Assembly: GCA_022925895.1 (NCBI GenBank)
Contig: JAKSYS010000182.1
Location: forward strand, 1 to 64,000
Direction of reading: 5' to 3'
DNA: 64,000 nt
DNA from: Fragilaria crotonensis
Lineage: Eukaryota; Bacillariophyta; Fragilariophyceae; Fragilariales; Fragilariaceae
The notes under the pieces: generated by a model
Seen by the model: only the letters and a program-made list of their open reading frames with translations
Databases searched by the model: none
Told to the model about the DNA's origin: nothing
Position numbers and translations under genes: made by a program
Shown here: positions 1,411 through 53,799 of the stretch, piece by piece
Layout of the letters: the number at the start of each line of letters is the position of its first letter
How positions within the stretch are numbered: the stretch's first letter is position 1

Positions 1411-4400
1411 TCACACTTCATAATGACCCTCATAACACCTCTTCACCCAAATGGGTGTTCCATTGTGACGACAGACAGGAACCATATGGGCTTTCCAATT
1501 TGTATTCGCTCTGGCTTTTTCTGCGATGAATTTGAATGAATCTCCTGCTACTGTCTGAACTTGGCGGTACGTTTCGATTGACATGGTGCCATTCTCAAGG
1601 AGACCCTCACAGTGTGCCACGACTGCAATCGATGCGTTTTCAACAACAGAATCAAGAAATGTCTTCATCATTTCGTATTGCTCATGCAATCGGAGGTTTG
1701 GGATTGGGAAGGGAAGACCTTGCGAGGTGGCAAATACTTTGATTACCTTGAGGCACAATTTCAGCCACGGCGCAATCTTCACAATCCATCTTCGAGGCGC
1801 CTCGATGTCAAAAGGTTCGTGCCCTGGCTCACCCGAGTGTGCACAGATGAAGACGACGCTGAATTTTTGCAACACCTTGTCCCTGATCCACTTCAATGGG
1901 GTGTTCCAGTCTTCCTTCTCTACCGAGATGGGAGTCAACCAGACGAGAGTCGGGCACTCCTTGAACTGATTTGCTGACAGAAGCGCCAATGCCGCCAAGG
2001 ACCGGTTATATCCCTTGGCCAACGTCTGTAGCATCTGCTGCTGCTTCTGTAGCAACTCGTTTGTGTGTTCAACACCAACATGATCGACATATAAATCAGA
2101 TCTCACCAGATACAGTAGGCGGAGACATTCATCCAACTTCGTTTGGTCGTCTCGCTTTTTACTGTACTGATCGTACCTCTCGTGAGGAATGCGTTGACAA
2201 AGATCCTTGTCTTGAATTTTGCTGGAGCACTCCTTGATCAGGCACAAAAGTTGGCATCCGTTGTCATCGCCGAGCTTGTTCACGATACAAGCTGTGCACA
2301 GCGCATGGCCTTCGCTGCACTTGATATCTGTACGATATTCGTTACAAATAAGACAGCGCGGACCGCTCTTTATAGCGCGCCCCGCTTCGGGATGCTGAAT
2401 GACTGCATTATTATTCAAAAGGATTGCATCGCTCAGCGTATCGAGGAGGTCCTTCGTGCTCAACCGTTCTTCAGGAAAAGGATCCATACACAACACTGAA
2501 TAGCAGCCTTTCATGCTATTTCAAGAGCGTCTGGATTCCACATAACGGTGGGATCTGCGTCACCCATGAGCTTTTTCCATCCATCGACAATCCGATGATA
2601 TCTACGCTCTTCTTGGACGTACTTCTCAAACACATCAAAAAATTGAGAGTCATTCGAATAAGTTAAGCGTCCAAGAATCAGCTCCACCAAGACGACGCCA
2701 ATGGAATATACATCATAGGCTGCGATATAGGGACATGGAAGCCCTCTCAACTTCTTTCCGAAATACTCTGGACAAATGTACCCAGGAGTTCCATGTGCAC
2801 ATCCGCCAGTTATGCTCTGCAAAGTGACTGGGAACGACTCCGGAGTAACGCTGGAGTTGTCGTCTTGTACAAATATGGCGAGTCCACAATCAATCAGTCG
2901 GGGGGTGAAGTCGTCCGCCAGCCAAACATTGGCACTCTTGATATCGCGATGAAACACGTTCCAACCCTTGCCTGCCACCTTGCACCCACCCGTGTGTAAG
3001 AAGTGAACCGCTCTCACCAATTGGAACATGACGGACAATCGAACGTCTGACGACAAGCGGGCTCTGTTACCATCATCAGTAAAGAAGTCCGCGAGGGAGC
3101 CGTTCGCAGCGTATTCATACACCACGCACTGCTGTGTACTGTTAGCATTTTAACTGTAGGCATACAAGACAATAATGTTGGGATGCCGGAATCGCTTTAG
3201 AGTCTGGTAATGTTGTACAAAGTGTGCTGTTAGAAATACTTGTTTTTGAAAGGGATGATTACTCCCTGTGCGTAAAGATAACACTCGATGTAGAACTTAC
3301 CGACAGTTCTCTCCGAAAGCTTCTGCGCATTTCCTCAATGGTATCCTGATCACATAGCGTTGGACTAATCATTTTCACTGCGAACTTCTTTGTCAGACGA
3401 CTATCTTCTGCCAAGTACACGTCGCCAAATGCCCCAACTGCAAAGAGAACAACCAGCATAGTGGCAATGACTGCAATGACCCAAATCTCGACAGCTTTTG
3501 CTGGGACAGGATATTGGTCCGAGGGAATTTCCTTGAGATTGCAACCCGTCACGGCGAAGCAAGTTTTGGTACGGTTTGGCGTTGCCCAAGTAGCCCCGGC
3601 AGGCCCAACGTCAACCCATTGTCTTGAGCCGTTAATGATCTGCATATTGAATATTGTGTAGAGAGGATCAAGTCGGTCGCCCTCTGGTGTGAAGCTAACG
3701 TTGCCACTCACACCTTGGAACGTCAGATTTCGGAGTTTCGAAGTGACCAGAGTTCCGTTCCGACGTGAAATGGCAGGGACCGATGAATGCGCTGTCAGCA
3801 GTGCAAGAATTGAGTCAATCAAGAACTCAGCAGTGTAGTCTGGCAGTTCGCCTGTCAAATCAAGTCCATTGATTAACTGCATCAATTGGAGCCGTTCCAA
3901 ATATTTCAGATACTTATCATCTCTGTTTCTGAAGGGGGTCAAGCCCAAGTATCCCGGAATGTCAGGCATGGCGAACACAGTGCCGTTGGTTGGCATGCGA
4001 CCGACCCAGCTTTGAGGTCCAACCCAGATTGTGTCAGGTTGAAAGCGTTGGTCACCGGCTATTTGTAGAATGGGGTAAGCCTCGCTGACATCGGCGACAA
4101 GCAATATCACTCATGAATTCTTGCTGGGATCATCGGTTGGAACCCCCTTCAAGGCCATCGTTACTGAATCTGCATCGACTTTCTTCTCCGCATTAAAAGT
4201 GATTGTGGACGAGTACGCTATCGTTCCTGTCCATGGCTCATTGTCATCGTGTCGGTGTTCTCCCTTCCAAAGCTCTTCAAATGCAGTCGTGTAATCCTTT
4301 GCATACACTGTGTCCGTGGCAAGAATCGTAACACGGTCCCAGCCAAATGATCGCAGCATAGCAATCATTGCCCCAACTTCTCCATTCGAGTCGTCGGCAC

Positions 4401-5019
4401 CAACAAGGCGCGAAAAGAGGGGAAAGTCGTCTTTGTCACCCAATTTTGGCGACGTGGAACTTGGGGAGATCTGAGTAACGTCATCCAAGTTTGTGATCCG
4501 TCCGACGGCGATAGATGCACCTGAGTACCGACACCCTACCACACCGTGAACGATTCCGCCCCACTCGTTTCGAATGTCCCAATAGGCCCTGGTGGCATTC
4601 GTCTCATCACAAGCTGGGTCAGCGATGCTGTAATTGATGATTGTACCATCATTGAAGATCTCGTCATGCCAGCCATCCGTGTGATCATTGATCAAGGCGA
4701 AGGTTAAATCGATGATTTGTCTTGCCCAATCGAAAGTGTTGGCGGTGTCGAAGAGCACGGCGACGTTCACGACGCTCTGGTTGGACGCAGTTTGCAGCTC
4801 TCGAGCATCGTAGCCTCCAAAAGTCACCTCGTTATCCAGAGCACTGATTCCAAGTGTGGCACCATTGCTCGTTTCGGCACTTGCAAAAAGGAATGTCACA
4901 CACCACCTCGACACCAAGATGTAACTCATCAATGTTGCAGGACGGCTTCCGCGACGGTATCCCATACTTCGACGACTGGCAATATTTGCTTTGGGAGTTA
5001 GTGTTGGTGTTAGGGACAT
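1411..5019 (-). pseudogene. Receptor pseudogene: ANF-type ectodomain, membrane span, kinase, RING-like tail
   Basis: Reading leftward, the order is a signal peptide (best start at the methionine at 4965, matching the paralogue at 23825), an ANF/periplasmic-binding type I ligand domain (QISPSSTSPKLGDK, WDRVTILATD) and one membrane helix (VIAVIATMLVVLFAV). A protein kinase follows: glycine loop GAFGDVYLAE, lysine in FAVKMI, a 97-bp intron (3204-3300, GTAAGT...CCAG), then RFRHPNII, HRDIKSANVW, DCG in place of DFG, and GTPGYICPEY. After the kinase C-lobe come a RING-like cluster (CLIC, C, GHALCTACI) and an unrecognised C-terminal domain (LVWLTP, FVFICAHSGEPG-like core, RRWIVKIAPWLKL). The gene is broken: TGA at 4111-4113 replaces the arginine codon of the paralogues, TAA lies at 3150-3152, and a frame change lies at 2511-2514. 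The ectodomain is closest to the PARP receptor at 23.8 kb. The glycine loop directly abuts the membrane helix, which suggests a deletion or fusion junction. Sequencing error is the alternative for single breaks, but three breaks favour a pseudogene. Confidence 0.82.
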
Positions 5020-8619: not shown

Positions 8620-9077
8620 TATATATCATATAGGGGGGAAATTGCAATTTAGTCCATAAATAAGTTTAAAGATTATAAAGTACAATGACCCTCTATCTAG
8701 TTTTGTATGGTATTGCAATATAGTACATTATGATTTCTAAATTGCATTGTAGTACACATCTTTTGGCCATGTTTGCTATCTAGTACATTTGTCTATTATA
8801 TAATCCATTTCTCAAATGCAGCGCCTGCCACTCCAAGCTTTCACAGAAGATATCGTACCCCGTCCTGTAGACTAAACAAAAATCAACCATGTTCACCACG
8901 CTTCTTTGGAGCCGTTCTTCGTCATTTATCTTCCCATGATAGCATCGATGGGTGCAAACCATTTCATTCTGATCCTGTCCATCAACCTCAACATTGGTCA
9001 TAATTCACTTAGGTGCAATACTCTTGTCATATTGCATGATATCCATGGTGTGTCAAATTTCCTTGGAAAAACAATTT
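8620..9077 (+). repeat. MULE left terminal inverted repeat (458 bp)
   Basis: Reverse-complement match to 13620-14066, with near identity from the GGGGAAATTGCAATTT-like tip to the inner end TTGGAAAAACAATTT. ORFs seen in this arm recur on the opposite strand in the other arm and are only repeat sequence. Confidence 0.92.
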
Positions 9078-13619: not shown

Positions 13620-14066
13620 AAATTGTTTTTCCAAGGAAATTTGACACACCATGGATATCATTCAATATGACAAGAGTATTGCACCTAAGTGAATTATGAC
13701 CAATGTTGAGGTTGATGGACAGGATCAGAATGAAATGGTTTGCACCCATCGATGCTATCATGGGAAGATAAATGACGAAGAACGGCTCCAAAGAAGCGTG
13801 GTGAACATGGTTGATTTTTGTTTAGTCTACAGGACGGGGTACGATATCTTCTGTGAAAGCTTGGAGTGGCAGGCGCTGCATTTGAGAAATGGATTATATA
13901 ATAGACAAATGTACTAGATAGCAAACATGGCCAAAAGATGTGTACTACAATGCAATTTAGAAATCATAATGTACTATATTGCAATACCGTACAAAACTAG
14001 ATAGAGGGTCATTGTACTTTATAATCTTTAAACTTATTTATGGACTAAATTGCAAATTCCCCTATC
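13620..14066 (-). repeat. MULE right terminal inverted repeat (447 bp)
   Basis: Reverse complement of 8620-9077. Differences are few (for example a small indel at the G-rich tip), which suggests the two ends diverged little since insertion while the coding part lost frame. Confidence 0.92.
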
Positions 14067-14075
14067 ATATATCAT
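14067..14075 (+). repeat. MULE target site duplication, right copy
   Basis: ATATATCAT, identical to 8611-8619. Confidence 0.85.
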
Positions 14076-14470: not shown

Positions 14471-16198
14471 CTACCACATTGCACTCGCACTGCCAAAGAC
14501 AGCATTACGAATTTCGCGCGCACGCTCCTCTTCGTACTCGTTGGGTTCCTCGTCTTGGGCTTCATATTGAAAGATGACCTCGTCATCGTCCACTTCCCCT
14601 CGTAACCGTTGCGATTGTCGCAGAGACTCCACAGGGGCGACATAGCCCAAGCTTTGCTCCCCAAGGCTCTTAATGAGACCAATACCCCCAACAAAACTAA
14701 AGGCGACGAAGCTTGCGACAAAGACCGGGCCGATCTGGTTTATCGACAATGACATGGAGAAGGTGATGTACATCACCAGCGTGAATGGGATCGGAACGAT
14801 GGAACCCACAGTGGCACATGTGAAGCATGGAACAGCCAAGGCGATTGGAAGAAGAGGTGTCGCGGACATACCCAGACACAAGCCAACAAACATCATTGGG
14901 AACATTGGTCCTCCAAGGAGCCCGAAACCAATACAAGCCGACATGGAAAAAAGCTTGGCAAAAGCTGTCGCGACGATCCAAGAAACGTCACGAGCAGTCA
15001 CTTCTTCTTGAACCAATCGACTGATGAACTGCATACCGCTTCCAACTAGCAAGGGGTTCCAGACAGACATGCAACCGTGTATTGCTCCACCGATGGAACT
15101 AAAGAACAGGATTCCAATCCACTGCGGTACTTTGTACGTATCATGCAGATAGCCGCAAATCGATGAACGAACCCACTGCAACATGCCAATCAAGCCGAGC
15201 GCGAGTGTACCAACACCCCCGCATAGTATCCCAATGGGTACGGCCGCGGCGAAATGCCAAAGCTCAAACGTATCTTCCCCCAGATCCAACATTTGAATCC
15301 ATTCCGATGAAGCGTGCGGTGATAGCAAACGTACGACAACATAAACGCTGGTTGCAGCAGTGCCTCCCAACGTGATTTGCTCCATCCAATCGTGATCAAG
15401 AGGTGCTATGCGATCCCTTCCAAGTCCAATTTCGGAACGAGTCAACGAATCCAACAACACGTCGGTGGGTCGGCCAGTCACCGACATCTCCTGCAAAACC
15501 GTAACCCCCAGTATCGGTGACAGCAATAGAGCTCCTAGCGACCCCGCCAGCCCTGCCTGCACTAAGCTTGCTTCACTTCGTCGGTCAACCTTGAACAAGC
15601 TTGACACCAGTGATGCGAGACCGCTCCCCAACGAACCCAGGGCGAGTTCAGGTCCCAGAGGAGCTCCTGTTGCCATGACGATTAGACTTGACGCTACCAC
15701 AAAGGGGGTCTCACCAACATGCCCTTTTAGATCACACACGTCGTGGAATATTGTTCGGATCCCTCCGTACCTGGGTGCTCCCGGCGAAATGAGGATCAAT
15801 CCGGTGAGGAACCCTCCGACAGTCGTGATGACAAGCCACCAGATTTCACCGTGGCTTCGCAAACCAGGATCAGAATACCAACGGTCCAAGAGGCAGTGAA
15901 CCGCCATGAAGAAGCCCCCAATACAAAGTCCCAGAAGTGATCCCAGTACTAAAGACAATGGCCATGCTCGTGTCCAAAATTCTTTGTTTGCCGCATATGG
16001 TCTACCAAGAATTCTCAACGGCACAAGCTGGTTCTCCGTATCATCGTTGTAGACGACGTCACCTGATCTCTCCCCTTCCGTGATCTGTGACGCCGTCAAC
16101 AACGATCCATGCTGTTCGATGGGAGTGAGTGGAATTGGAAGATTCAAGAGAGGCTCCTCTGCATCCACGTCCGACATGTCCATCGCTGTGATGAGCAT
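14471..16198 (-). CDS. CLC-type chloride channel or Cl-/H+ antiporter
   Basis: An uninterrupted 575-residue frame with about ten or more hydrophobic helices. CLC signature segments are in order: GAPRYGGI near residue 140; GAPLGPELALGSLGSGLASL near residue 180, the selectivity-filter region carrying the Gly/Glu of the gate; LLSPILGVTVLQEMS near residue 226; and GLLGGPMFPMMFVGLCLG near residue 440, the GxFxP filter. The N-terminus is soluble and starts MLITAMDMSDVDAEEPLL; methionines at 6 and 8 are alternative starts. The acidic tail has no CBS domains, so the protein is the short, prokaryote-like or organelle type. It would move chloride (or nitrate) across an internal or plasma membrane. No intron is needed to read it and no defect is seen. 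Confidence 0.9.
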   Translation of the reverse strand: MLITAMDMSDVDAEEPLLNLPIPLTPIEQHGSLLTASQITEGERSGDVVYNDDTENQLVPLRILGRPYAANKEFWTRAWPLSLVLGSLLGLCIGGFFMAVHCLLDRWYSDPGLRSHGEIWWLVITTVGGFLTGLILISPGAPRYGGIRTIFHDVCDLKGHVGETPFVVASSLIVMATGAPLGPELALGSLGSGLASLVSSLFKVDRRSEASLVQAGLAGSLGALLLSPILGVTVLQEMSVTGRPTDVLLDSLTRSEIGLGRDRIAPLDHDWMEQITLGGTAATSVYVVVRLLSPHASSEWIQMLDLGEDTFELWHFAAAVPIGILCGGVGTLALGLIGMLQWVRSSICGYLHDTYKVPQWIGILFFSSIGGAIHGCMSVWNPLLVGSGMQFISRLVQEEVTARDVSWIVATAFAKLFSMSACIGFGLLGGPMFPMMFVGLCLGMSATPLLPIALAVPCFTCATVGSIVPIPFTLVMYITFSMSLSINQIGPVFVASFVAFSFVGGIGLIKSLGEQSLGYVAPVESLRQSQRLRGEVDDDEVIFQYEAQDEEPNEYEEERAREIRNAVFGSASAMW

Positions 16199-16592
16199 GT
16201 GTCAAGGTCAAAATCCGAATGAAGATTTTCTATGAATTTACGAAGATACTGAAGTACTCAATGCTACGGAGTACAAGTACCAGCGTATGTACTATGCTAT
16301 TCTCTCGCAATCCGAGTACCACCTACAACACTCCGCGATATTTCTTGTCGACTGAAATGCACGTATCACATCACCACTGCGACCGCTATGAACCATAAAT
16401 GCAAGCACACCACAGACCGGTGTGAAAGCGACGTACTTGGTACTCCTACTGATTGATGTACTGTACTACGGATAGCTATAATTTCAAGGCTGCTTGCCAA
16501 ATGGGTGAACTCGAGTGTCAAGTGGGAGGAATGAGGTTATATATAGTTGACTGGTGATCGTCGAAAAGCCCATAATACATCTCTGAACGCCA
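16199..16592. other. Intergenic between CLC gene and first PARP receptor
   Basis: Contains the CLC 5' flank and the 3' flank of the PARP receptor; both genes are on the minus strand. TATATATAG at about 16537-16545 is only a generic AT motif. No gene is supported. Confidence 0.4.
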
Positions 16593-19500
16593 TCACAGAT
16601 TGGAATGTAACTTCTGGATATCGCGACACAAATGAATCAGAAGTCGGATACTCGGAGTACCGGACTTAAGAGGCCTCCAGTGCAAGAGGGTTGTGTGTTG
16701 TGTGTAATGAATGAGTGCAAACGTGTTACATATAACGGGAATCAATGCATCGACAAATTGGGAAAATCTCATACAAAGTTTTGACGAAGGCAATCGGCGA
16801 CGGTCCGCTCGCGTCAACAAGATCCGATCACACAGTCCTTGAGTCATTCTTCGGCCGTCTCGGACAGAACGCTGTCGGTGACTGGGATGCTGGATATTCC
16901 GCTGCTCCATGGCACCAAAATCAACTTCGTATTCCCAATCTCCAGCACTTATTCGCACTATGCTGGATGATGAAGCATTACTGTCCGTGTAATACTGAAA
17001 TGCGGAATTCAGTATCACCTGATGATGGTCGGCATATGGTTTCCAACTGTTATCGTCAAAAAACTCCCAGGTGCATTCGACAGAGTTTCCCATCTCAATG
17101 TCAGGTGCAACTTCTTGGGATTGTCGTTTCTTCATTCTTTTCTTTACGGGCTTCTTTATGGCCTCGCCTTCGTTCTCAAAGGGAGTGCGACTTTGATCAC
17201 GTGAGCCCCGATAGTATCGAACTAAGTAGTCCGGATAGGCACGACCATTCTCGTAAACCACCCAAACTTGCGATCCAGCTGAGTAGCCGGTCACAGTGTT
17301 GTACTTTAAGTTCGTCGCGGGGTCGACAGGCGGAATGATTAGTTTCTTGCACTCAGCAGCTTTCTGTGGGCTCTCATCTCGATCCATCAGAACTTCCTTG
17401 CCCACCAGAAGCTTGGTCAAGAACATCTCTCGTTCTTCGTCAACTGCTCCAGCTCGTGGGGAGGAAGAGAGCAGGAACCCCGCAGCGCCAAGCCAAGGCT
17501 GGTACGAGTAGCTATACGAGTAGCTACTCTTTTCCGCAAAATAGATCCCACGCCTGCGGAGAATCGTCAACAGAATTAGACTTCTGAAACATGAGACGCA
17601 GGCGACACCGATTTCACGATCCAACTTACCCCCACAATCCACTTTGAGAGTATTGCATCATGAATCCATCCTGGCGGTCGTTGTAGATTGCGCTTGGGTC
17701 CACACTCGACGTTCCGTGCCATACAGACTTTTCGTTGTGATCAACTCCATTCATTGCAAGCCGATCCCTGTGAAACGAATAGTACGTCCAAAGCGAGTTG
17801 TTTTGGATCCTCCACAGCTTGGATATGTGCGCATCACTCATGTCTGCTTGTAGTCGTGTGCAAACCTCCCAGTATTGCGGGTCATTGGGCAAGACTTCCA
17901 CGAGGATTTCATTCGAGGCAGACCACGTATCTGGCTTTTCTATCAACGCGGCACGCTTCTGCATGAGTGTCGCTTGACGTCGCTTTGCTGCTTCGACTTT
18001 GTCGTCGATATCAAGGATTTCGTCGTCAATCTCTTGCATCGCCTTAATTTTCTTCTCGATTTCGGACATGCTGGATTGAAGAGCAAGCGTCTTCCTTCGC
18101 TTCTGCTCGTATTTGAGCCCAACCGCAACGAGAACAGCCATCATTGCGGTTATGAGAACAACAACCCAAAGTTCAACAGCTTGCGGTGGCACTGGATAAC
18201 TGCTCGACGGAATTTCCTCAAGATTGCAACCCGCCACGGCGAAGCAAATGCTGCTATTATCTGGCTCTGCCCAAGTAGTCTCGGCACTCCCAACCTCAAC
18301 CCATTTTGGCACGCCCTTATGGACCTGCATGTTGACTATTGTGTAATGAGGATCAAGACGGTCTCCTTCTGGTGTGAAGCTAACGTTGCCGCTTACACCT
18401 TGGAACGTCAGATTTCGGAGTTTCGAAGTGACCAGAGTCCCGTCGCGACGTGAAATGGCAGGATACTTAGGGATCGAAGAGAGTGCTTTCACGAGCGCAA
18501 GAATTGAATCAACCAGATACTCAGCAGTGTAGTCTGGCAACTTGTCCATCACATCAAGGCCATTGGCAAACCGCGTTCCATTGAGGCGTTCTAGGAATGT
18601 GGGATTTGCAACATCTTGGTTCCTGACTGGGATCAAGCCCAGGTATCCTGGAAAGTCAGACATATTGAACGTGGCGCCTTCGGGTGGCATGCGACCGACC
18701 CAGCTTTGGGATCCAACCCAGATTGTGTCAGGTTGAAAGCCTTGCTCACCGGCTATTTGTAGAATAGGGTAAGCCTCGCTGACATCGGCGACAAGCAGTA
18801 TCACTCGAGAATTCCTGTTGGGATCATTGGTTGGGACCTCACCCAAGGCCGTTGCTACTGAATGAGCATCGACATTTCCCTCGGCATCAAAAGTAATGAT
18901 GGACGAGTACGCTACAGTTCCCCTCCATTGCTCACCGTTGTCACTTTGGTGTTGTCCCTTCCAAAGCTCTTCAAATCCAGTCGTGTAGTCCCTTGCATAC
19001 TGTGTGTCCATGGCGAAAATCGCAACACGGTCCCAGCCAAACGATCGCAGCATGGCAACCATTGCCCCGACTTCGCCCTCAGAGCTGGAGGGGCCAACAA
19101 GGCGCGAGAAGAGGGGAAAGTCACCTTTGTCACCCAACTTCTGCGACGTGGAACTTGGAGAGATCTGAGTAACTTGATCCAGGCTTGTGATGCGTCCGAC
19201 GGCCATGGATGCACCTGAGCACCGACATCCTACCACACCGTGCACGATTCCGCCCCACTCGTTTCGAATGTCCCAATAGGCCTTGGCGGCAGCCGTCTCG
19301 TTGCAGACTGTGTCAATAATGCGGTAATTGATGATTGTACCATCATTGAAGATCTCGTCATGCCAGCCATCCGCGCGGTTATTGATCAACGTGAAGGTGA
19401 AATCGATGATTTCCTTGACCCACGCGAAGGCCTTGGTAGTGTCGAAGAGCACGGCGATGTTCACGACACTCTGGTTGGATGCAGTTTGCAGCGCTCGTGC

Positions 19501-19650
19501 TTGCGCGTCGTCGCCGCCGCAGACCACCTCCTTGTCACAAGGGCAGGTCCCAGCTTCGCCGCTAGTCGTATTGGCACTTGCAACATACCCGCTCGACAAC
19601 ACGATGCAATGCAAGAGTATTGCAAGACGGCTTCCGTAAAGGAGCCTCAT
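16593..19650 (-). CDS. Receptor-type PARP, copy A (ectodomain, membrane span, ADP-ribosyltransferase, WWE)
   Basis: Two exons (19650-17630 and 17553-16593) with a 76-bp GTAAGT...CGCAG intron give about 993 residues. Layout: signal peptide 1-27; Cys-rich linker; ANF/periplasmic-binding type I ligand domain about 55-480 (VVGCRCSG, QISPSSTSQKLGDK, GWDRVAIFAMD, SQSWVGRMP) with NxS/T sites; one membrane helix about 493-513, followed by basic KYEQKRRK; coiled coil about 528-572; PARP catalytic domain about 580-790 with WHGTSS (His645), RGIYFAE (Tyr678) and WVVYENGRAYPDYL; basic KKPVKKRMKKR; WWE domain about 832-905 (TWEFFDDNSWKPY, WEYEVDFGAM). The intron falls inside the GRGIYFAE motif, and splicing restores it. 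The position equal to PARP1 Glu988 is Val770, which predicts mono-ADP-ribosylation. Relative to copy B, a frame change after the WWE adds an unrelated tail of roughly 88 residues; the paralogous stop (KNDSRTV, TGA 16828-16830) lies in another frame. The ligand is unknown. Confidence 0.88.
17554..17629 (-). other. Intron of PARP receptor copy A
   Basis: GTAAGT donor directly after a TGGGG end of exon 1 and a TTCTCCGCAG acceptor. It is paired in position and phase with the 71-bp intron of copy B, with the same pyrimidine-rich end. It interrupts the codon for glycine just before RGIYFAE. Confidence 0.85.
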
Positions 19651-20997
19651 CCTCTTATCTCGTTCCTATGATGTCAATTGATTTCCCGGGATATTGTGAG
19701 AATGCGAATGTTCCATGAGTTTGAGAAGATCTCAAATCTCAAGGCTTGGTACTGTACCGATTGTGCGAGTCGTGCATTACGACATGGCTCGGGTTCTGCT
19801 CGCGAATCAGAACATTGTCATCAAGACAAAGATTCAAACGCAGATTCGTCTTCAGAGCAAGGGCTACAAGTGCCCTTGCTCAATGTGGTGCCAAGTGCCA
19901 AGTGCCGAAGTGACACTTGGCGTGAGCATATCTTGTTCGTGCTTTTGTACTACAAGTACAAATACAAGTACCAGGCGCACAACAGGTACACCGGTACGGT
20001 AGCAAGACGTGTATGATACCGTACGATATCTCAAAGTTTGGTGTCGGACTGCCCGAGTACTGCAGTGATGTATGCACTCACTATACACTGATTGCACAAC
20101 ACGAGGTACGATGTACTCGCATATGATACTACCAGTACAAGTACATAGCACAAGTTCGGCGAGGGTCGAATCAAAGCATGATGGTCAAGCTTAAATGACG
20201 AAGATTTAACGCAGATTCGTTTTCAGGAAGCACCAGGCACCAGGTACTCGTACGGAAGAACTGTCCTCTCTGCGCGGGTTGTGGGTTGTGGCCCAGTGGG
20301 CCAGATAAGCCCTGTATCATACATAAAGTAGGAGGTACTAGTACTTGTATCATACCAGATATGCCGGTATGCCTGATGCGTTGTACCTGGTATGAACATA
20401 CATGGTAGATGGTACCACAGTACGCCCAAACACGCGCTTGTCCTCAGTCCTCACATGTCATACGTCATACCAGTACTGTTGTATTGATGCACGCGTCTCT
20501 GCGCTTGATCGACCCAAGAAACCTGTCATTACCATTTTCTTGATGACTACAATGTACATGCAGTAGAACGTTATGTTTGCTTTGGCAGGACTTATCCAAA
20601 CGTTCACCGAAAGGATCATCTGGACGAGACTGGTTGGAATGTCTTCCGAGTCACAATGACAGATTCCCCGCTGTGCCATCTCCGCTTGCCACAATGGCAA
20701 AGCACGGAGCACCGAAGAACCCCAATGCAGTGACGTTGTGGGACAATGAGGCAGAGGCGAGAAGTACAAAAGAAAGCAGACTACTAGCACACCAGAAGGA
20801 ATACAGGTCCATTCACAAGTTTGTGACCCATGTTGGAAGACGCTACCGGTAGTTATTGGGCTACAACCAAGCGGACAAATATGAAGAGTAATCATGACAT
20901 GCCCATCCAAGGCAACGGCGCTTGTAATTTGAACCGAGTGCTCATCCTCGATTCGTGCTCAAATTCTGATCTTGGTGGCCTCTGATGAGTTCATCAA
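19651..20997. other. Intergenic between the two PARP receptors
   Basis: About 1.35 kb with many GTAC-containing words and a local CCAAGTGCCAAGTGCC repeat near 19890. It is the 5' flank of copy A and the 3' flank of copy B. Short open frames on both strands have no family features. No terminal repeats were found, so a plain tandem duplication spacer is likely. Confidence 0.4.
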
Positions 20998-23825
20998 TTA
21001 TACGGTTTTCGTCGGGTCGTCCTTCAGTCTTCTGCGCACAGCACGTTGTCGGTTGTTATGATGCTGGATATTTCTCTGCACCATTGCAGCAAAATCAACT
21101 TCGTATTCCCACGCACCAGCACTTATTCGTACTATACTGGATGATGAAGCATTATTGACGGTGTAGAACTGAAACGCCGTTTCAAGCAACACCTGATGAT
21201 GGTCGGCGTATGCTTTCCAGTCATCATCACCTTCGTACTCCCAAATGGAGGCAGCGACGTTTCCCATCTCGAGGTCTGGTGCACATTCTAGGGGTTCTCC
21301 TTTCTTCATTCTTGTCTTTACAGACTTCTTCATGGCCTCGTGTTCGTTCTCAAATGGAGTGCGCTTGCGATCACGCGAACCCCGATAGTATCGAACTAAG
21401 TAGTCCGGATAGGCGCGACCGTTTTCGTAGACCACCCAAACTTGTGATCCAGCTGTGTTGCCGGTGACAGTGTTGTACTTCAAGTTTGTCACGGGATCGA
21501 CAGGTGGAATGATTAGTTTCTTGCACTCGGCGGCTTTCTGTGGGCTCTCTTCTCGATTCATCAGAACTTCCTTGCCCACCAGAAGCTTAGTCAAGAACAT
21601 CTCTCGCTCGCCGTCAACTGCTCTAGGTCGTTGCAAGGACGTGGACGGCAACCCTGCAGTACCAAGAAATGGCTGGTACGAGTAGCTATAAGAGTAGCTA
21701 CTCTTTTCCGCGAAATAGATCCCACGCCTGCGAAGAATCGTCAACAGAATCAGATATCTATGAGGCGCATGCGACACCGATTTTACATTCCAACTTACCC
21801 CCAATACCCACTTTGCGAGTATTGCATCATGAAGCCATCCTGGCGGTCGTTGTAGATAACGCTCGGGTCGACACTCGACGTTCCGTGCCATACAGACGTT
21901 TCGTTGTGATCAACTCCATTCATTTCAAGTCGATCCCTATGAAACGAGTAGTACGTCCATAGTGAGTTGTTTTGGATCCTCCACAGCTTGGATATGTGCG
22001 CATCACTCATGTCTTCTTGTAGTCGGTTACACACCGCCCAGTATTGCGGGTCATCAGGGGCGACTTCCACGAGGATGTCATTCGAGGCAGACCACGTATC
22101 TGGCTTTTCTATCAACGCTGCTCGCTTTTGCATGAGTGTTGCTTGACGTCGCTTTGCTGCTTCGACTTTGTCGTCGATATCAAGGAGTTCGTCGTCAATA
22201 TCGTGCATCTCCTTCATTTTCTTCTCGATTTCGGACATGCTGGACTTGAGAGCTTTCTTCTTCGTATGACTCCTCCAGTATTTGAGCATAACCGCTATGA
22301 GGAGAACCAGCATAACGGCAATGACAGCAATAACCCAAATTTCAACAGCTCTTGCTGGCACAGGGTATTGATCCGAGGGAATTTCGTCAAGATTGCAACC
22401 CGTCACGGCGAAGCAAATGCTCTGAAGTTCTGGCTCTGCCCCAGTAGCCCCAGCACGCCCAACGTCAACCCATTGTCTTGAGCCGTTTATGATCTGCATA
22501 TTGAAGATTGTGTAGAGAGGATCAAGACGGTCGCCCTCTGGTGTGAAGCTTACATTGCCACTCACACCTTGGAAGGTCAGATTTCGGAGTTTCGAAGTGA
22601 CGAGAGCCCCGGTGCGGCGTGAAATGGCAGGGTATCTAGGGACCAAAGAAAGCGCTTTCACGAGCGCAAGAATGGAGTCAATCAGAAACTCCGCAGTATA
22701 ATCTGGCAGTTCGGTCATGACGTCAAGTCCATTGGCACGCTGCATCTCTTGGAGTCGTGCTAGGTATGTCTGATATTTTACATCTCTGTTTCTGAAGGGG
22801 GTCAAGCCCAAGTATCCCGGAATGCCAGACATTGCGAACGGGGTGCCATCTGGTGGCATGCGACCAACCCAGCTTTGAGGTCCTACCCAAATGGAGTCAG
22901 GTTGAAAGCCTTGCTCACCAGCTTGTTGTAGAATAGGGTAGGCTTCACTGGCATCGGCGACAAGCAATATCACTCGAGAATTCTTGGTGGGATCATCGGT
23001 TGGGACGCCCTTCAAGGCCTTTGTTACTGAATCAGCATCGACTTTTCCCTCGGCATCAAAAGTAATTGTGGACGAGTATGCCACCTTTCCTTCCCATTGC
23101 TCGTTGCCATCATTTTGGTGTTGTCCCTTCCAAAGCTCTTCAAATGCAGTCGTGTAATCCTTTGCGTACTGTGTGTCCGTGGCGAGAATCGTGACGCGGT
23201 CCCAGCCAAACGATCGTAGCATGGCAACCATTGCCCCGACTTCGCCCTCAGAGCTGGAGGGGCCAACAAGGCGCGAGAAGAGGGGAAAGTCACCTTTGTC
23301 ACCCAACTTCTGCGACGTGGAACTTGGGGAGATCTGAGTAACGTTATCCAGGTTTGTGATGCGTCCGACAGCGATAGATGCACCTGAGCACCGACACCCT
23401 ACCACACCGTGAACGATTCCGCCCCACTCATTTCGAACGTCCCAATAGGCCTTGGCGGCAGCCGTCTCGTCGCAGACTGGGTCAGCAATGCGGTAATCGA
23501 TCCTTGTACCATCAGCGAAGACCTCGTCGTGCCAGCCATCCGTGTGATCATTGATCAAGGCGAAGGTGAAATCGATAATTTGTCTTGCCCAATCAAAAGT
23601 GTTGGCGGTGTCGAAGAGCACGGCGATGTTCACGACGCTCTGGTTGGACGCAGTTTGCAGCACTCGAGCATCGTAGCCTCCGAAAGTCACCTCGTTTCCC
23701 AGTGCGCTGGCTCCCAGTGTGGCACCATTACCTTCGGCACTTGCAAGAAGGAATGAAACGCACCAGCTCGACACCAAGATGCATCTCATCAACGTTGCAG
23801 GACGGCTTCCGCGACGGTATCCCAT
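20998..23825 (-). CDS. Receptor-type PARP, copy B (ectodomain, membrane span, ADP-ribosyltransferase, WWE)
   Basis: Two exons (23825-21799 and 21727-20998) with a 71-bp intron (GTAAGT...TTCGCAG) give 918 residues. The start MGYRRGSRPATLM is followed by a hydrophobic signal (CILVSSWCVSFLLASA). Domains match copy A: ANF-type ligand domain about 60-480; membrane helix VIAVIAVMLVLLIAVML; coiled coil SEIEKKMKEMHDIDDELLDIDDK; PARP with WHGTSS, RGIYFAE, WVVYENGRAYPDYL; and WWE with IWEYEGDDDWKAY, WEYEVDFAAM and RAVRRRL. It ends KDDPTKTV. No internal stop or frame change is seen. The ectodomain is closer to the receptor-kinase pseudogene at 1.4-5.0 kb than to copy A in its N-terminus, while the intracellular half matches copy A. 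Predicted topology is type I, with the PARP and WWE domains in the cytosol. Confidence 0.92.
21728..21798 (-). other. Intron of PARP receptor copy B
   Basis: GTAAGT donor and TTCTTCGCAG acceptor. Removing it joins ...SGYWG to RGIYFAEKSS, rebuilding the PARP GxGIYFA motif, which is strong support for the splice model. Confidence 0.88.
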
Positions 23826-24410: not shown

Positions 24411-26068
24411 CAATTTGCGGAATGCAGAGTACACTTGCCTGTGCGCGATGAGAAGCGACTTGCCGCGGTAGTTGTTGACGTTTCTGACCGTGCACCTCTC
24501 GTCAGGAGCCACCAAGACGACCACACTGTCACGTCCAACAACTCACCGCACATCAACTCGTCGTCCAACGACAGATGAATTCAATCAGTGCACTACCACT
24601 GATGATTGTTGCAATGGTCTGGAGTCTGGACACTGTCTACGATCTGAACGTCAACGAATTTTCGCGGGAACGCACAATTCATTTGCGTCTCGAGTTGAAG
24701 GCTTCCTATTCGTGTTTCCAAGTCAAATCATCAAGGTGGAAGACCAAATGGATGCTGGATATCGTGCCATCAATCTCGACTTTTGTGGCTGCAACAACAA
24801 GCTGGTTGTGTGCCGCAACAATTGCTTCATGACCAGGATCCCGAACGAGGCATTCATTGGAATGGTATCGTTTGTAAGATAACAATCCAACCGAAGTATT
24901 GCTCGTCTCGCTGGAACTCAACTCCGATTTGGACCAAGCAGTCAATTTGTACGATGTCTACGCGGGAATGCAAGCTGTTACAGGTTCTGTCGGCAACCTC
25001 TTTGCTCACTCAAGCTTGTCAACGACATGGTCGAAGCTGCGCGAGCTCAAGGAGGCTGGCGTAGTAAGAGATTTATGATGTTGACGCATTTCCGACGCTT
25101 TATAGGTGATTCATCGCTAACTTGAAACTTGAAGCAGCCCACAGTGTCATTCAGATGACCCATGTCCCAAGGCCTGCGCTCCTGGTTTTCCTATGCCTAT
25201 GAAACGAAGTATAGTTTCGGCAATGTCGATGCCATCACTTCTGACTACACTGCCTGTGGCAGCTCTTTCGGCGTGTCCCACTTTCTCACTCTTCCAAACG
25301 CCAATGCTGCCAAAGAATTGGGGACGATTTCCATCTTAGAAGAACGCATCAAAAGGTTTTCGGCTGTCAACAGTGATTAACCTGTTAATGCCATTCTGGT
25401 GGACTTCGCCTCCAAAACCAGTTTGCTGGAGGTGACGCAGGTTCGAAACAAGGCTTTCGCCAGTCGTCGTGCAGCGCAAACTGACCGAATGCCACTGTCC
25501 ACTGTGTATCGAAGCATGCATAGCGTTTCATATTCTGATGTGGATCGCGGCTTTGGAGAGTGTAGTATGGAGCAGTTCGGTCCGTGATCCTGCTTGCACA
25601 CATTTTCTTATTCCAGGTTTGATACACCATGGTCGGAGTAGTCGTAGGTCGTAGGTATCACTTGTATACCATCTGCTCTACTAAAAGGGCAACGGTACGT
25701 GTAGTTTGTTGTCCAGGACTCCGAGCATACCTGGTTATTTACGCGGGTACGCGGGGTGGCTCCAGAATGATGAGGGAGTTCACCCGACAACCGACATGAG
25801 ACATGAGACATGAATGATGTGCCTATTGTCTATGCAATGAACTACCAGTACATCTTGTTCATGAATACAACTACCAGTACAAGAATGCTGATATGATAGT
25901 TACTGGTTCACGCATTCAATTGAGAACGGACTGCAGTACTCTGCAGTACGTGCAGTTCCTGTAACAGTACAGTCTTTTTACAGTTCTACGGTAGAGTACA
26001 AATGTAGAGGCAAACAATGTGTCGGCATGTCTTGTGTTTGTGCAGGATGCAGGAATTCCATCGTGTGA
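24411..26068 (+). repeat. Segmental duplication, copy 1 of PI-PLC-X locus
   Basis: Aligns with 43381-45236 in direct orientation: the PI-PLC-X gene, its 3' region (CACCATGGTCGGAGTAGTCG) and the intergenic stretch up to CAGGAATTCCATCG, just 5' of the PPR gene. The main length difference is the (RPTT)n minisatellite, which is nearly absent here. Confidence 0.85.
24448..25455 (+). pseudogene. PI-PLC-X-like protein pseudogene (copy of 43396-44656)
   Basis: Homologous throughout to the intact copy: [35 protein letters not shown], then, after the former intron, [12 protein letters not shown] and [14 protein letters not shown]. It is disabled: the aligned ATG at 24448 is followed by an in-frame TAG; a block between GLESGH and FAGTHNS is out of frame through two compensating indels; an extra base near VSF at about 24873 shifts frame; and CAA became TAA at 25378-25380. 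The RPTT linker is reduced to about two units. The intron (GTAAGA...GAAGCAG) remains recognisable near 25061-25136. Confidence 0.85.
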
Positions 26069-26314: not shown

Positions 26315-28117
26315 CTACAAAGTAGTTGCAGGTGGCTCTTTTCTTGCCAAACAACGTGGCCATTGAACCTCGTTCCTCTTGAAGGCTATGTCAAAATGAT
26401 GCACAAGCTTTGACTGGAAGAAAGGTAGAGTCAGATTTTGAACAACGTGGATGCCACCCACAGTCCTTACTGCTGACGCGCCTTCATCTCCAGTCCATTC
26501 GTCCTCCACATCCTCCACATCCTCCAAAGCAAGCTGAGTAGCAGGAGCAGGATCATGTCCACCGAGGTTGGCACGTTGTGCGACTTGATTAAGAAGACGG
26601 TAAATTGCATCTGGCAATGCACCGTCTCTGCTCATACTAGTACTCGTCGCTTTGCCACTGCCTTCAACATCACTAGGAGGTATCGCAAAAGGAACCACCG
26701 CAGTCAAATGATCCTCTGGAACATCCCCAATCTCACCCTCCCAATCGCTTGGAACTCCATGCCTCCATTCTTTATCAAGGCCACCAATCTCCAAAAGCCA
26801 GTTGTGCAAAGCACACCATGTTAAAAAGATATCGTCAGCACATTCAACTCCCGACAGTCGTATCCCTGACTTCAGAATTCGCCATCTCCCCTTAAAAATC
26901 CCGAACGTGCACTCTACGTCCTTTCTCATCGACTCCAGCCATGAAGAAAAACAAATCTCGCTCGTTTTAGTGGTTGCTTTGATTGGAGGAACTGTGGTTG
27001 CCCAAGAGTGATACCCGTTATCCACTAAAAGCCAAGCACCGCAATATGTTTGCTTGATCACCGCCTTGCTTGAACTTTCATCGTCATCGTCGTAGTCATA
27101 TAATTCAACAACTCGTCGTTCAAAATTGTACCATCGTTGATTTTCTGCATAAAATCATCAAATGTTGCGAGAGTTTTATCATTCCACCTTGCCGGATGCC
27201 CCTTTGTTGTACTCAAAATTCGTCATCGTTGATTGACAGTCACGTTGTACGTTCTTGCCGTATGTGACAACTTGAACCCGATGTGAGACTGACGAAACCT
27301 TGCTTGCAAACGTTCAATCAGTATGTGTGTGGCATCTGTCGACCCCACCGCACCTGCTGGGAACCCTGCAAGCTTGTACTCTCCTCCTGTGTGCTGCAAA
27401 GCACCTTGATGAGTCACCGGCGAATGCACGTATTTGTTTTAAAGCACTGTGCTCCCATACTTTACAAACTTGTGAAAAACACTCGTATCACATCAGCGTT
27501 ACACCACGTTCCCTCTTCCAAATAATCAAATGTGAGTCCGCGTCCCAAATATCGAAGCGCCGTCAATACGAGCAAAGCAAGGCAGTGGTGCTGATTGCAC
27601 TCGGGAGACATTGACACGGTTGCTGTGCCAGCGCTTGAAGCAATCATCATGCTCCAATGATTTTGCAAGCTCCTCAAATTGGTTGTATGCTGGTAGGCGA
27701 AATCGAAGTCGGAATTTTTTCAGAAATCTTGGGTCGTCTCGTGCTGAATATGCAATATATGCCTTGTACCAGTAGGAATTTCGCGGAACAAGCAACTCGA
27801 AGGTTCTATCAGGGTTTGTCCACCGCGCCAATCTCCCCCTTGATATCCTGCGTCGTTTCTCCTTCGACGAATGATGCGGAAACCATCACTGCTTCCGATT
27901 CATCAGGATCATCTCAATCTCCTTCATGGCAAGACACGATGAAGTTCCTCGTCACGCTAATCATGGATAGAATTTCATCATCAATCTCATTGGCGCACGT
28001 TCGTTCTGCGGACTCGGACCTTCCAGAACCGGCAGTAGCAGTGCCAAAACTGCTCTCATCAGCACCATGGGGAGTGAACAATCCTGGAAATGTTGTGACC
28101 TTGAAAGGGCATGACAT
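26315..28117 (-). pseudogene. PIF/Harbinger-like (DDE_Tnp_4) transposase relic
   Basis: Reading leftward, pieces of a PIF/Harbinger (HARBI1-like) transposase appear in order: an N-terminal acidic/Ser segment (27914-28117); NSYWYKAYIAYSARDD and RFRLPAYNQFEEL (about 27640-27790); LTALRYLGRGLTFDYLEE (about 27530-27590); AVGSTDATHI, the first catalytic Asp region (about 27320-27350); LLVDNGYHSW; and the final block MRKDVECTFGIFKGRWRILKSG with CALHNWLLE (about 26800-27030). At least four frame changes separate them. The last 248 residues (26315-27061) are open. Terminal repeats were not identified. Confidence 0.72.
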
Positions 28118-30977: not shown

Positions 30978-32667
30978 ATGGTGTCAAAGAATTGCACTCC
31001 TGCTTGGCTGCTCGTCCTCCACAACGACGATGGTCGTTTTGGAACCCAATGCCGTGCCTCCCCCCCACCGCCAAAGAATCCATCCATGTTCTCTTCCCTC
31101 ATGAAGACCTTCAAAGCACAATCTGCTGCAATCATGCACTTCCTATGGGGGGACAATGAGGAGGACGTACTACCCCACGACGACGACAACAACAACCGCC
31201 GATCTCATATTGCTGAGGATGGTGACGGAGGAGGAGATCTCCTACGATGGGTCCTTGTTGCCCCGCGTCAATCTGCTCGTCATCAAAATGCAAACTCTGT
31301 TGACAATCGTCAACGATCACATGGACAACGACTACGTCCCACCAAGACCAAGCAAAAGAGAACCAAGTATCCTCGCATGAACCAGAAGGATAGTTTGTGG
31401 TGGAAAATGTTTTTGGTAGCGCCAAAGCGCAACGAAGTGACGGCAGAACCAAACGGTAGACTCGCGGCAAAATTTCGAAAACTCTTCCATGTTCCTTTCC
31501 AGGTCTTCCTTGAATTGAGGAATGTTGCGAATGAAGAGTTTTGGACCGAATGGACAGAGGATAGGAAATGTCGCGCGGGAAAACTTGTTTCCAATCTGGA
31601 GCTTAAGATTTTGGGTGCCCTTTTTGTTTTGGCAACTGGTGCCTCGCACTTTATGTGCAGCACATGCTCCAACATCAGTGAAGAGGTCCATCGGTCTTTT
31701 TTTTAAATGGATTTTCAATATGGCATCCATAAAGGAGCGCTACATATACATGCCACTTGACGACGCGTCCTATCGAAAGGTCGTTGGAGAATACACCGCG
31801 CGAGGTCTTCCTGGTTGCATTAGAAGTGTGGACTGCGTTCACATTGGGTGGGACCGTTGTCCCGTCCAATATACAAACATGTATAAAGGTAAGGAGGGGT
31901 ACACCTTGATCGCATATGAGGTAATCTGTACCTGCCGCAAATTTATCCAGAGTGTCTCGGTCGGCCATCCTGGGACCCGAAATGATAAGCACATCTCTCG
32001 CACCGACGATTCGGTGACCGACTTGTTGGTGCCAAATTTGTGGCTTTCGTCAAAGATCTGGCAATGTCTTGGTCCAAATGGACAGAAGCGCAATTTCTTT
32101 GGCGCTTACCTGATTTGTGACGGAGGCTATCATAAGTGGCCATGCCTTATCTTTCCGTGGAAAAAAGGATTACCTGACTGTCCGGTCATGAAGTTCTCAA
32201 AGAAATTGGAATCTGTGCGCAAGGACATTGAAGGCGTCTTTGGAATTTTGAAAGTCAGGTTCCGATTCCTCAAGACATTCAACCTTCTGCGCCGTCAGGA
32301 CTCGATTGACAATGCCTTCGTCACGTGTTGTATTTTGCATAATATCATGCTTCGTCACGACGGATACTTGGCAGAAGACCTTACTCCGTATCCTGGAGGA
32401 TTGGAGGAAGCACTTGCGAAACAGTATGGCGGGATTAGATGGAATGGCTCGGAAGGCATGTGGGTTCGCGATGGAAGTGACCAACAAGAAGCATCAGCTG
32501 CTTCCTATGAAAACCTGCCACCGCTAGTGACTACTCCGTTTCCTCGCGTACATACGGAAGCGGAGACGAGGAGGCTAAGGGCACAGTGGGAGAGAGTGAT
32601 GTATGCACTAGTCGATCATCATGAGTACTACCAAAGAAGGAGCGATGGTTGTCATGACATCGAGTAG
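30978..32667 (+). pseudogene. PIF/Harbinger transposase of element 1, one frame change
   Basis: The N-terminal half (30978-31706) includes a basic region (RLRPTKTKQKRTKYPR) and a helical segment (KFRKLFHVPFQVFLEL). The C-terminal half continues in another frame to 32667 with the DDE_Tnp_4 core: CIRSVDCVHIGWDRCP (first Asp), HPGTRNDKHISR (second Asp), DGGYHKWPCL and RKDIEGVFGILKVRFRFLK (Glu). The frame changes at an eight-T run (31697-31704): one T fewer would join ...SEEVHRSFF to KWIFNMASIKERY. That could be a real mutation, polymerase slippage or a sequencing error. All catalytic blocks are present, so this element is young or recently decayed. Confidence 0.85.
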
Positions 32668-36233: not shown

Positions 36234-37778
36234 ATGGATAATGATGGCAGTGATAATAATGATATGGATGAGGTTCTTGATTGGGATGATGATGATGACT
36301 CTGAAATGATGGCTGCGGCGGTGTTGGTAGTGGTGAACAACAACGTAGCAATCATGAATATGATGATCAAGACCAAATGCGGATGATTAATGACGTCATT
36401 ACGCCAAATCAAGACTACAGACGGCAGCCAAGACAGGCCAAAGCTTTATTCCGTCACAATGAAGCTGTCTGGTGCATTCAAAGGGATTTCCTCGGTATTC
36501 CAGGTGATCCGACGACACCTATTTTCAAAGACAGCAGTTTCGAGATGTTCTTCCGATTGTCGCGGACCCGAGTTCAGAGAATTTTTGAAGACGTCATGCG
36601 TGCTGGTCTTCCCTTTTATGCACATCAAGTAGATGCTACTGGCAGGAAGGGGGCATCACTGGAATCGAAAATCCTCTTGCCACTGAAAATGTTTGCGTAT
36701 GGAACTGCCGAACATGCGTTTTCGGACTACTTTCAAATGTCGAAGGCTCTGGCATCAAAATGTTGCGAAGAATTTGCGAACATGATGCGATGTATTTATA
36801 GTGAAGAGTACCTTCGAATCCCAGATGCAAATGACTTGAAAAGTATAACAAAGCTACACCAGGAAGTTCATGGAGTTCGTGGTATGTTCGGTTCCCTTGA
36901 CTGCATGCACACGCGATGGAAGAATTGTCCTAAGGCATGGCAGCAATCATTCAAGTCCGGAAAAGAAAGTGGTGGTCCGACAGTTGTGCTTGAGGCATTG
37001 TCAGACTATCATTTGTGGTTCTGGCAATGCCTCTTTTGGATATGCCGGTTCATTGAATGATCTCAACATTTTGAACCTGTCGCCACTGTTGGAGTCATTG
37101 GTGGACGGCACTTTCACATCACTTGAAGAGACAGCAAATCTTGTTCCGTTTGAAGTTGATGGTGAGGCATTCAATAGATTGTATGCTCTTGTGGATGGGA
37201 TATATCCTCCGTATTCCCGGTTTGTGAAAGGGATTCAGGTTCCAGTCAGTGCTTCGGAAAAGGCGTTCACTGCATGGCAGGAGGCTGCACGAAAGGACAT
37301 TGAAAGAGCGTTTGGAGTGCTTCAGTGTCGCTTTCAGGTAATGGCTCGACCTTTTCATGCTCATTCCCTTGTCAAAATGAGCAACACCGTGTCGGCCTGT
37401 TTGATTATGCATAACATGTGCGTGTCGGATAGGGTGATGGATGGAAATGTGTATGCAGTTTATGATCCGTCGGCGCACAACGATAACGATGAACAAATAA
37501 CAATATGTGATGTTTTTGATGCCATTGCCAACGAAAACTTGGACTATCGTCGTCGTCAACGACACGAGGCTGAGGCTGCTGAGGAGACTGAAAACTACTA
37601 CGAGGAAATGGTGCAGGCTCGTATTGGACTTGCAAATGCTGGAAACGAATTCGTTGTGCAACATATGCTTGCTCGACAAGCTAATTGGAAGGAACTGAAT
37701 GACAGGTACGAACATGGTCGTCTTCATGCTGCGCTAAAGCGATTGAAAGGACAAGAATCATACTACGACGACCAGTAG
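36234..37778 (+). pseudogene. PIF/Harbinger transposase of element 2, frameshifted
   Basis: An acidic N-terminus begins at 36234 (MDNDGSDNNDMDEVLDWD) in one frame and the main body starts at 36377 in another. The body carries FEMFFRLSRTRVQRIFEDVM, ESKILLPLKMFAYG, GMFGSLDCMHTRWKNCP (first Asp), FGYAGSLNDLNILNLSP (second Asp) and ARKDIERAFGVLQCRFQVM (Glu), ending LMIMHNMCV-like and an acidic/coiled tail. An extra C near 37025 moves VVLEALSDYHLWFW out of frame with NASFGYAGSLND. So at least two frame changes are present, although the catalytic triad is conserved. Confidence 0.85.
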
Positions 37779-43281: not shown

Positions 43282-43395
43282 TATAGAGTATGCATACAAA
43301 TACAATGGACGACGTAGGTCGAGTACAGGAGCTGCCTTCAGATTTCAGATACAGTTCTCGCTGTCATCATACTGAGAACGCTGAATGCTGAGCAC

Positions 43396-44656: not shown

Positions 44657-45346
44657 ACCGACCCAATGTCACTGCGTATCGAAGCACGCAAAGCGTTTCA
44701 CAATCTGATGTGGATTGCGGCTATGGAGGGTGTAGTATGGAGCAGTTCAGTCCGTGATCCTGCTTGCACACATTTTCTTATTCCAGGTTTGATACACCAT
44801 GGTCGGAGTAGTCGTAGGTCGTAGGTATCACTTGTATACCATCTGCTCTACTAAAAGGGCAACGGTACGTGTAGTTTGTTGTCCAAGGACTCCGAGCATA
44901 CCTGGTAATTTACGCGGGTACGCGGGGTGGCTCCAGAATGACGAGGGAGTTCACCCGACAGCCGATATGAGACATGAATGATGTGTCTATGAACATCTGC
45001 AATGAACTATAAAGTATGCATACATCTCATTCATGAATGATACAGCTACAAGGAATGCTGGTATGATAGGTAATGGTACTCGCATGCAATTGACAACGGA
45101 CTGCAGTACGGCAGTACGTGCAGTTCCTGTAACAGTACAGTTTGGTACAGTCCTACGGTAGAGTACAAAATCTAACTATGCAATACGGAATACGGTAGAG
45201 GCATGTTGTGTTGGCGCAGGAATTCCATCGCGAGAGATCCATCACACAACCAGAAACTCAACATTCCCTCTGGCGCCATCTCACTGGCAACTGACGACCA
45301 CGCGGTGGCTCGACGACGGGGAGCATTTGCTCTAAACTTCACCAAC
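44657..45346. other. Intergenic between PI-PLC-X gene and PPR gene
   Basis: Shared with 25456-26068 through the segmental duplication up to about 45236. It holds the PLC 3' UTR and the PPR 5' region. A frame upstream of the chosen PPR start is open but lacks a signal peptide at its own start, so I treat it as leader. Confidence 0.5.
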
Positions 45347-53166: not shown

Positions 53167-53217
53167 TTGTTTTGAGAGAAAACACATTTTCTAACATACC
53201 CTAAGTTTCGTTAACCT

Positions 53218-53598: not shown

Positions 53599-53799
53599 GT
53601 GCCCACCCGGACACAACAGCCAGTGGGGGAAGTACAGCGGGCAGTCGAAGCAACACCAGCACGGGACGCAACGGAACGAACCGTCCTCGCGGGAACCGAG
53701 GAGGCACCACCAACCGACAAACTAACGCAGGAGGCGCGGCGCAACAGGCGCCAGCGACCCGCAATCGCCCCATCTTCAAGGGCAACACCGAAGGGATGT

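Follow-up and report, generated by a model that had tools for sequence, protein, structure and literature searches.

Two adjacent genes encode predicted single-pass receptors with an intracellular PARP domain

To our knowledge, single-pass receptors with an enzyme on the inner side of the membrane carry kinases, cyclases or phosphatases. The natriuretic-peptide-type receptor guanylyl cyclases, as we understand their layout, combine an ANF ectodomain, one transmembrane (TM) helix, a helical linker and a cytoplasmic enzyme. Here, we describe two adjacent genes, A and B, on the minus strand of a 64,000-nucleotide stretch of eukaryotic, probably algal DNA (contig JAKSYS010000182.1, positions 1 to 64,000; the whole stretch is called the window below), whose predicted products are laid out in the same way. 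Unlike in the receptor cyclases, the output part of A and B is a PARP catalytic domain together with a WWE domain, and neither a kinase nor a cyclase domain was matched in either protein (Pfam, E up to 0.1). We read both proteins as ligand-gated, single-pass receptor mono-ADP-ribosyltransferases, a reading to which we assign a probability of roughly 0.6 from the sequence. The receptor-PARP-WWE architecture itself is near certain.

The ectodomain family is shared with class C G-protein-coupled receptors (GPCRs), such as mGluR, GABA-B and the diatom receptors treated in PMC3727952. In contrast to these, A and B have one TM helix instead of seven and an enzyme inside; a seven-TM domain was not matched by Pfam in either protein, and only one strong TM helix was seen. 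The catalytic domain resembles that of PARP14, PARP15, PARP10 and other Clade 3 PARPs, with which A and B share an aliphatic third triad residue, the lack of a regulatory-domain match and, for some of them, a WWE domain. Unlike the Clade 3 PARPs, A and B are built as membrane receptors. Furthermore, the WWE domain follows the PARP domain in A and B, whereas it precedes it in the PARPs described in the accessible parts of PMC2964712 and PMC10450202. A PARP domain combined with a membrane helix is found in PARP16, a sponge PARP12-like protein and Clade 3 proteins of Rhizaria, but no periplasmic binding protein (PBP) or ANF ectodomain is mentioned for them in the accessible text of the two sources (PMC4245714, PMC10450202). 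PARP16 differs from A and B in addition by its C-terminal helix and its place in Clade 6 (PMC10450202, PMC4245714). For the Rhizaria Clade 3 PARPs an H_lectin domain is listed as well, without a statement in the accessible text that it and the TM domain occur in one protein (Perina 2014, PMC4245714). A domain survey of 2023 covers 17 human PARPs and, in its accessible part, uses the word transmembrane once, for PARP16 (PMC10450202).

No receptor with a PARP inside was found among the matches listed from the open-access literature, judged by title and start of the abstract; a description elsewhere is possible. This agrees with the first-pass annotation of the locus, which knew of no receptor of this ectodomain type with a PARP. 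The accessible parts of the Seminavis robusta genome and pheromone papers do not mention an ANF-PARP receptor (PMC7335047, PMC4726125). As far as the accessible texts go, two sequenced diatoms are reported to have no PARP, and at least two PARPs are reported for a further diatom (PMC2964712, PMC4245714); Thalassiosira oceanica has at least two and T. pseudonana seemingly none (Perina 2014, PMC4245714). Relatives were also sought with two short peptide patterns per scan in bacterial, archaeal and viral collections, and the negative outcome speaks only to close relatives there: alignments of exon 1 and exon 2 confirmed none of 565 and 34 pattern matches, respectively, in bacterial and archaeal contigs, and none of 137 and 30 in viral contigs.

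The coding spans and exons of the two genes are as follows.

20998..23825, minus strand: gene B, whole coding span, 918 residues after splicing; signal-peptide-like start, ANF domain, TM helix, heptad linker, PARP domain, WWE domain
21799..23825, minus strand: gene B exon 1, with the ATG at 23825; start to first PARP half (ending in QSGYWG) in an uninterrupted frame
20998..21727, minus strand: gene B exon 2; second PARP half (GRGIYFAE to YPDYL), WWE domain and stop
16593..19650, minus strand: gene A, whole coding span, 993 residues after splicing; architecture as in gene B, with a longer, unalignable C-terminal tail past the WWE domain
17630..19650, minus strand: gene A exon 1, with the ATG at 19650
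16593..17553, minus strand: gene A exon 2

Exon 1 is open throughout in a single frame, with 673 whole codons in A and 675 in B, and it covers the ectodomain, the helix, the linker and the PARP domain up to the residues WG. The spliced proteins are 76.7% identical across 904 aligned codons. Starting at residue 59 and continuing through the WWE domain, some 850 codons align without a single indel, while the intron differs by an indel of 5 nucleotides. ANF_receptor (PF01094), PARP (PF00644) and WWE (PF02825) all exceeded the curated Pfam cut-offs in both spliced proteins, and the motifs HGTS, GRGIYFAE and YENGRAYPDYL were found in A and in B. Given the E-values, the two copies and the purifying selection on all three domains (see below), these matches are beyond chance. 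The first-pass annotation had described two adjacent genes for a single-pass receptor with an intracellular PARP and a WWE domain; the Pfam domains, the structure matches to PARP14 and mGluR8 and the selection on PARP and WWE bear this out, and its coordinates, strand, introns and motifs were recovered unchanged for both genes.

Two artefacts were considered and rejected. Since the way from the start codon to the middle of the PARP domain is one uninterrupted exon in both genes, running through the membrane helix, and splicing is needed only within the PARP core, the fusion does not result from joining neighbouring genes, as had also been argued at first pass. Pseudogene status of A and B was rejected in view of their ratios of non-synonymous to synonymous substitution (dN/dS) and of frames that align without coding indels.

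The input side of both proteins is an ANF_receptor domain.

22494..23513, minus strand: gene B ANF_receptor domain, residues 105-444 (Pfam, E 2.9e-42); mGluR8-like (5.6e-15)
18325..19347, minus strand: gene A ANF_receptor domain, residues 102-442 (E 1.9e-39)

Behind a hydrophobic, signal-peptide-like start lies a two-lobed ligand domain of the PBP-I (ANF/mGluR) type, which covers profile positions 20-351 in A and 21-351 in B out of 353. The nearest solved structures are mGluR8, with the E-value given above, and mGluR6, 7 and 4; matches to GABA-B and to the natriuretic-peptide clearance receptor (4.5e-6) were weaker, and the only NCBIfam match was weak, to a bacterial binding protein for branched-chain amino acids. 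The mGluR8 alignment pairs S147, T170 and Y220 of B with identical mGluR8 residues, which we take to be ligand contacts. A carboxylate-bearing small molecule other than a plain amino acid would be a reasonable guess for the ligand, and we put it forward as no more than that. Seven putative diatom class C GPCRs carry PBP-type ectodomains, according to the accessible text of Port 2013 (PMC3727952), so such an input module would not be foreign to these algae, if the source is one.

Between the ectodomain and the enzyme, both proteins have a membrane helix.

22284..22346, minus strand: gene B membrane helix, about residues 494-514, positive charges toward the PARP domain
18115..18177, minus strand: gene A membrane helix, about residues 492-512
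22104..22241, minus strand: gene B heptad (coiled-coil-like) linker, about residues 529-574

Past the hydrophobic start, this is the sole strong membrane helix, with the top hydropathy window starting at residue 494 in A and 496 in B; weaker windows occur near residue 377 in the ectodomain of B and near 937 in the C-terminal tail of A. Lysine and arginine residues flanking the helix number 5 and 6 per 20 residues on the PARP side versus 0 and 1 per 15 on the other side. N-glycosylation motifs of A lean toward the ectodomain (8 versus 2). A helix spanning residues 491-572 of B appears in a low-confidence predicted model.

Such an analysis does not separate the plasma membrane from the endoplasmic reticulum (ER), to which PARP16 is targeted by its TM helix (PMC10450202). 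The proteins might reside inside the cell, in the membrane of the ER or of endosomes, where the PBP domain would sense a luminal compound and the PARP domain, although cytosolic, would answer an internal stimulus. We consider this quite unlikely, as the ectodomain belongs to the family found in class C GPCRs and natriuretic receptors, which we take to act at the cell surface. Nor is the diatom plastid-import signal, as we understand it, seen: the residue after ASA, close to the predicted cleavage point, is E or N instead of an aromatic one.

The enzymatic part is interrupted by a short intron in each gene.

21385..22094, minus strand: gene B PARP catalytic domain, about residues 578-790 (Pfam 608-789), intron-interrupted; E 3.4e-12, PARP14 4e-17
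17211..17925, minus strand: gene A PARP catalytic domain, about residues 576-788 (Pfam 606-787), intron-interrupted; E 1.6e-13
21728..21798, minus strand: gene B intron, 71 nucleotides, GTAAGT to CGCAG, between the catalytic His and Tyr
17554..17629, minus strand: gene A intron, 76 nucleotides, GTAAGT to CGCAG

Profile positions 22-197 of 199 were matched. When the PARP domain alone was compared with solved structures, human PARP14 was nearest (4e-17), followed by PARP15, PARP12 and the tankyrases; the PARP14 match is carried by the first half of the domain, and the second half scores poorly by itself (domain E about 0.5). Aligned to PARP14, the catalytic residues are retained as H647 (HGTS) and Y680 (GRGIYFAE) in B, with the same motifs in A. 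At what we take to be the third triad position in the PARP14 and PARP15 alignments, valine faces leucine, giving a triad H-Y-V. The glutamate that marks chain-forming polymerases is thus replaced by valine, and no PARP regulatory domain was matched in either protein (Pfam, E up to 0.1). An aliphatic third residue without a regulatory domain is the combination of mono-ADP-ribosylating Clade 3 enzymes. Indeed, this position is I, V, M or L in most Clade 3 PARPs, which likely lack chain-forming activity, and PARP10, 14 and 15, with an altered third residue, are demonstrated mono-ADP-ribosyltransferases (Citarelli 2010, PMC2964712, accessible text). Because of the triad H-Y-V, the PARP domain of A and B is predicted to be a Clade-3-like mono-ADP-ribosyltransferase.

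In both genes the intron separates the codon for the catalytic His, at its exon 1 side, from that for the catalytic Tyr, which belongs to exon 2. Splice options across the PARP core were enumerated, and the best 12 per gene were considered. Several alternatives retain a long frame, for example donors 6 nucleotides upstream in A (17635) and 9 nucleotides upstream in B (21807), which lose 2 and 3 residues, respectively. We chose the introns 17629-17554 and 21798-21728, since their removal restores WGRGIYFAE, which aligns with GKGTYFA of PARP14. The view of the first-pass annotation that a short intron splits the PARP core of both genes and that its removal rebuilds the GxGIYFA motif is confirmed by these GT-AG introns. 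If the intron is retained, the donor itself provides an immediate stop after WG, and an unspliced message would consequently encode a receptor without the catalytic Tyr.

The WWE domain lies downstream of the PARP domain.

21031..21246, minus strand: gene B WWE domain, residues 837-908 (PF02825, E 2.1e-12)
16860..17072, minus strand: gene A WWE domain, residues 835-905 (PF02825, E 1.8e-9)

Past this domain, gene A continues at 16593-16843 (minus strand) with a tail of about 80 residues that has no clear similarity to the C-terminus of B and is weakly hydrophobic near residue 937. It may represent a genuine tail, a change of frame or an intron that escaped recognition.

To compare constraint on these parts, substitutions between A and B were counted after Nei and Gojobori, excluding gap columns, with bootstrap 95% intervals. 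The dN/dS ratio was 0.207 for PARP (213 codons; 0.118-0.348), and 0.184 for WWE (78 codons; 0.089-0.350, based on 982 usable resamplings out of 1000), and the ectodomain gave 0.39 over 412 codons (0.285-0.542). All three are under purifying selection. Higher ratios were obtained for the stretch from PARP to WWE (0.58, 40 codons) and the N-terminus (0.93, 54 codons). Best kept are the parts expected to do the chemistry.

A third gene in the window carries the same ectodomain on a different output.

1414..4965, minus strand: paralogue C; start, ANF ectodomain and TM helix as in B, then a protein kinase in place of linker, PARP and WWE

Between 4965 and 3436, C is 83% identical to B over 513 residues, and the DNA is 86% identical over 1552 aligned bases; the B-C ectodomain dN/dS is 0.295. 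The DNA similarity stops at the inner face of the helix (3436 in C, 22290 in B). The kinase follows directly (Pkinase, 1.3e-19, 3149-2514), and at the helix-kinase border the DNA reads CTCTTTGCAG followed by TT, which resembles a splice acceptor. The tail of C gave no Pfam match at E up to 0.01. The presence of the same ectodomain on a kinase in C suggests that it serves as an input module, and we read the three genes as one ectodomain family that was combined with two or more types of output. C is interrupted by a TGA in frame at 4111-4113 and, within the kinase frame, by a TAA at 3150-3152, and its frame changes may be introns or damage. C is thus probably broken, and it may or may not once have worked as a kinase receptor.

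The stops in this sister gene, the unalignable C-terminal tail of A and the nearby transposon genes (a DDE transposase matched by Pfam and others recognised by eye) could be taken to mean that A and B, too, have no present function and are chimeras in decay, or without expression, within a region rich in repeats. We consider this very improbable: the frames of both copies are intact, coding indels are absent from residue 59 through the WWE domain, and dN/dS in the catalytic parts is low.

Read as receptor mono-ADP-ribosyltransferases, A and B would work much like a receptor guanylyl cyclase or a receptor kinase with another enzyme inside. The ectodomains would pair, as in other ANF receptors, and a small ligand from outside would shut the two lobes. 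This movement would travel through the membrane helix and the linker and bring, or turn, two PARP domains into an active arrangement. The PARP domains would then use NAD+ to attach single ADP-ribose units to the partner chain as well as to targets in the cytoplasm, and the WWE domain may bind the ADP-ribosylated product and keep modified partners at the receptor. The pair is a candidate ligand-gated ADP-ribosylation system.

Several observations weigh against this reading. The dN/dS ratio is 1.03 for the membrane helix (21 codons) and 0.53 for the juxtamembrane region and linker (62 codons). Their joint value of 0.64 (83 codons; 0.33-1.41) is indistinguishable from neutral; as this interval includes 1, constraint lends the coupling no support. 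The heptad signal of the B linker is modest, with 8 of 13 large hydrophobic residues at a/d positions (shuffle P 0.029), and N-glycosylation motifs in B barely lean toward the ectodomain (5 versus 3). AlphaFold models were of poor quality, with a mean predicted local distance difference test score (pLDDT) of 35.5 for exon 1 and 54.8 for WWE. The WWE domain of A alone found nothing below E 0.4 among solved structures, the best WWE protein being HUWE1 (0.41). Two acidic residues of mGluR8, which we presume to bind the amine, correspond to S190 and Q317 in B. Paralogue C is probably broken. Finally, valine is given as the third triad residue of PARP13 also (PMC2964712, accessible text).

This last point bears on the nature of the output. 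The PARP domain might be a pseudo-PARP, as PARP9 reportedly is, serving as a non-catalytic binder of NAD+ or ADP-ribose or as a scaffold, and signalling would then proceed by recruitment of partners through PARP and WWE. PARP13 is inactive and lacks the catalytic His. PARP9, an inactive member of Clade 3, lacks this residue as well (Q-Y/S-T/S; PMC2964712, accessible text). A and B, in contrast, retain both the catalytic His and the Tyr (HGTS, GRGIYFAE), and PARP10, 14 and 15 transfer single units despite their altered third residue, which makes a silent PARP domain in A and B rather unlikely.

Beyond the two genes, receptor ADP-ribosyltransferases may form a new class, for which we see about even chances. 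In such proteins an outside ligand would directly switch a mono-ADP-ribosylating PARP at the inner face of the membrane, the WWE domain would read the mark, and the ectodomain family would swap its outputs between PARP and kinase; intron retention could also yield a catalytically empty decoy receptor. If true, an outside ligand would be coupled in a single step to the use of NAD+ and to the ADP-ribosylation of proteins, a modification otherwise linked mainly to DNA damage, stress and immunity, and PARP biology would gain a member that is activated by a small ligand from outside. For a diatom source, the finding would also be notable in view of the reports on diatom PARPs cited above. Should the proteins work as they look, they would represent a new way of converting a signal from outside into a mark on proteins, and with sensor and enzyme in one molecule this is easily testable.

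In the neighbourhood, a gene for a CLC-type chloride channel or transporter (14474-16201, minus strand; PF00654, 4.3e-26) adjoins gene A. Two plus-strand stretches, 24532-26002 and 43657-45169, are 81% identical to each other; the scanned part of the second (43318-44202, plus strand) is PI-PLC-X-like, scoring 22.6 bits against a Pfam cut-off of 23.1, and has a long TRRP repeat near its start. Position 26318-27154 holds a DDE_Tnp_4 transposase (Pfam, 3.8e-13), and the sequences at 31519-32664, 36305-37775 and 53726-58960 resemble Harbinger transposases and a copia retroelement, judged by eye only. Inverted repeats at 8621-9077 and 13620-14072 are 98% identical and enclose an Ulp1-like frame (Pfam 0.0003) and a MULE-like frame recognised by eye. 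Direct repeats at 52788-53167 and 58693-59076, 99% identical, lie around the copia-like element and are likely its long terminal repeats.

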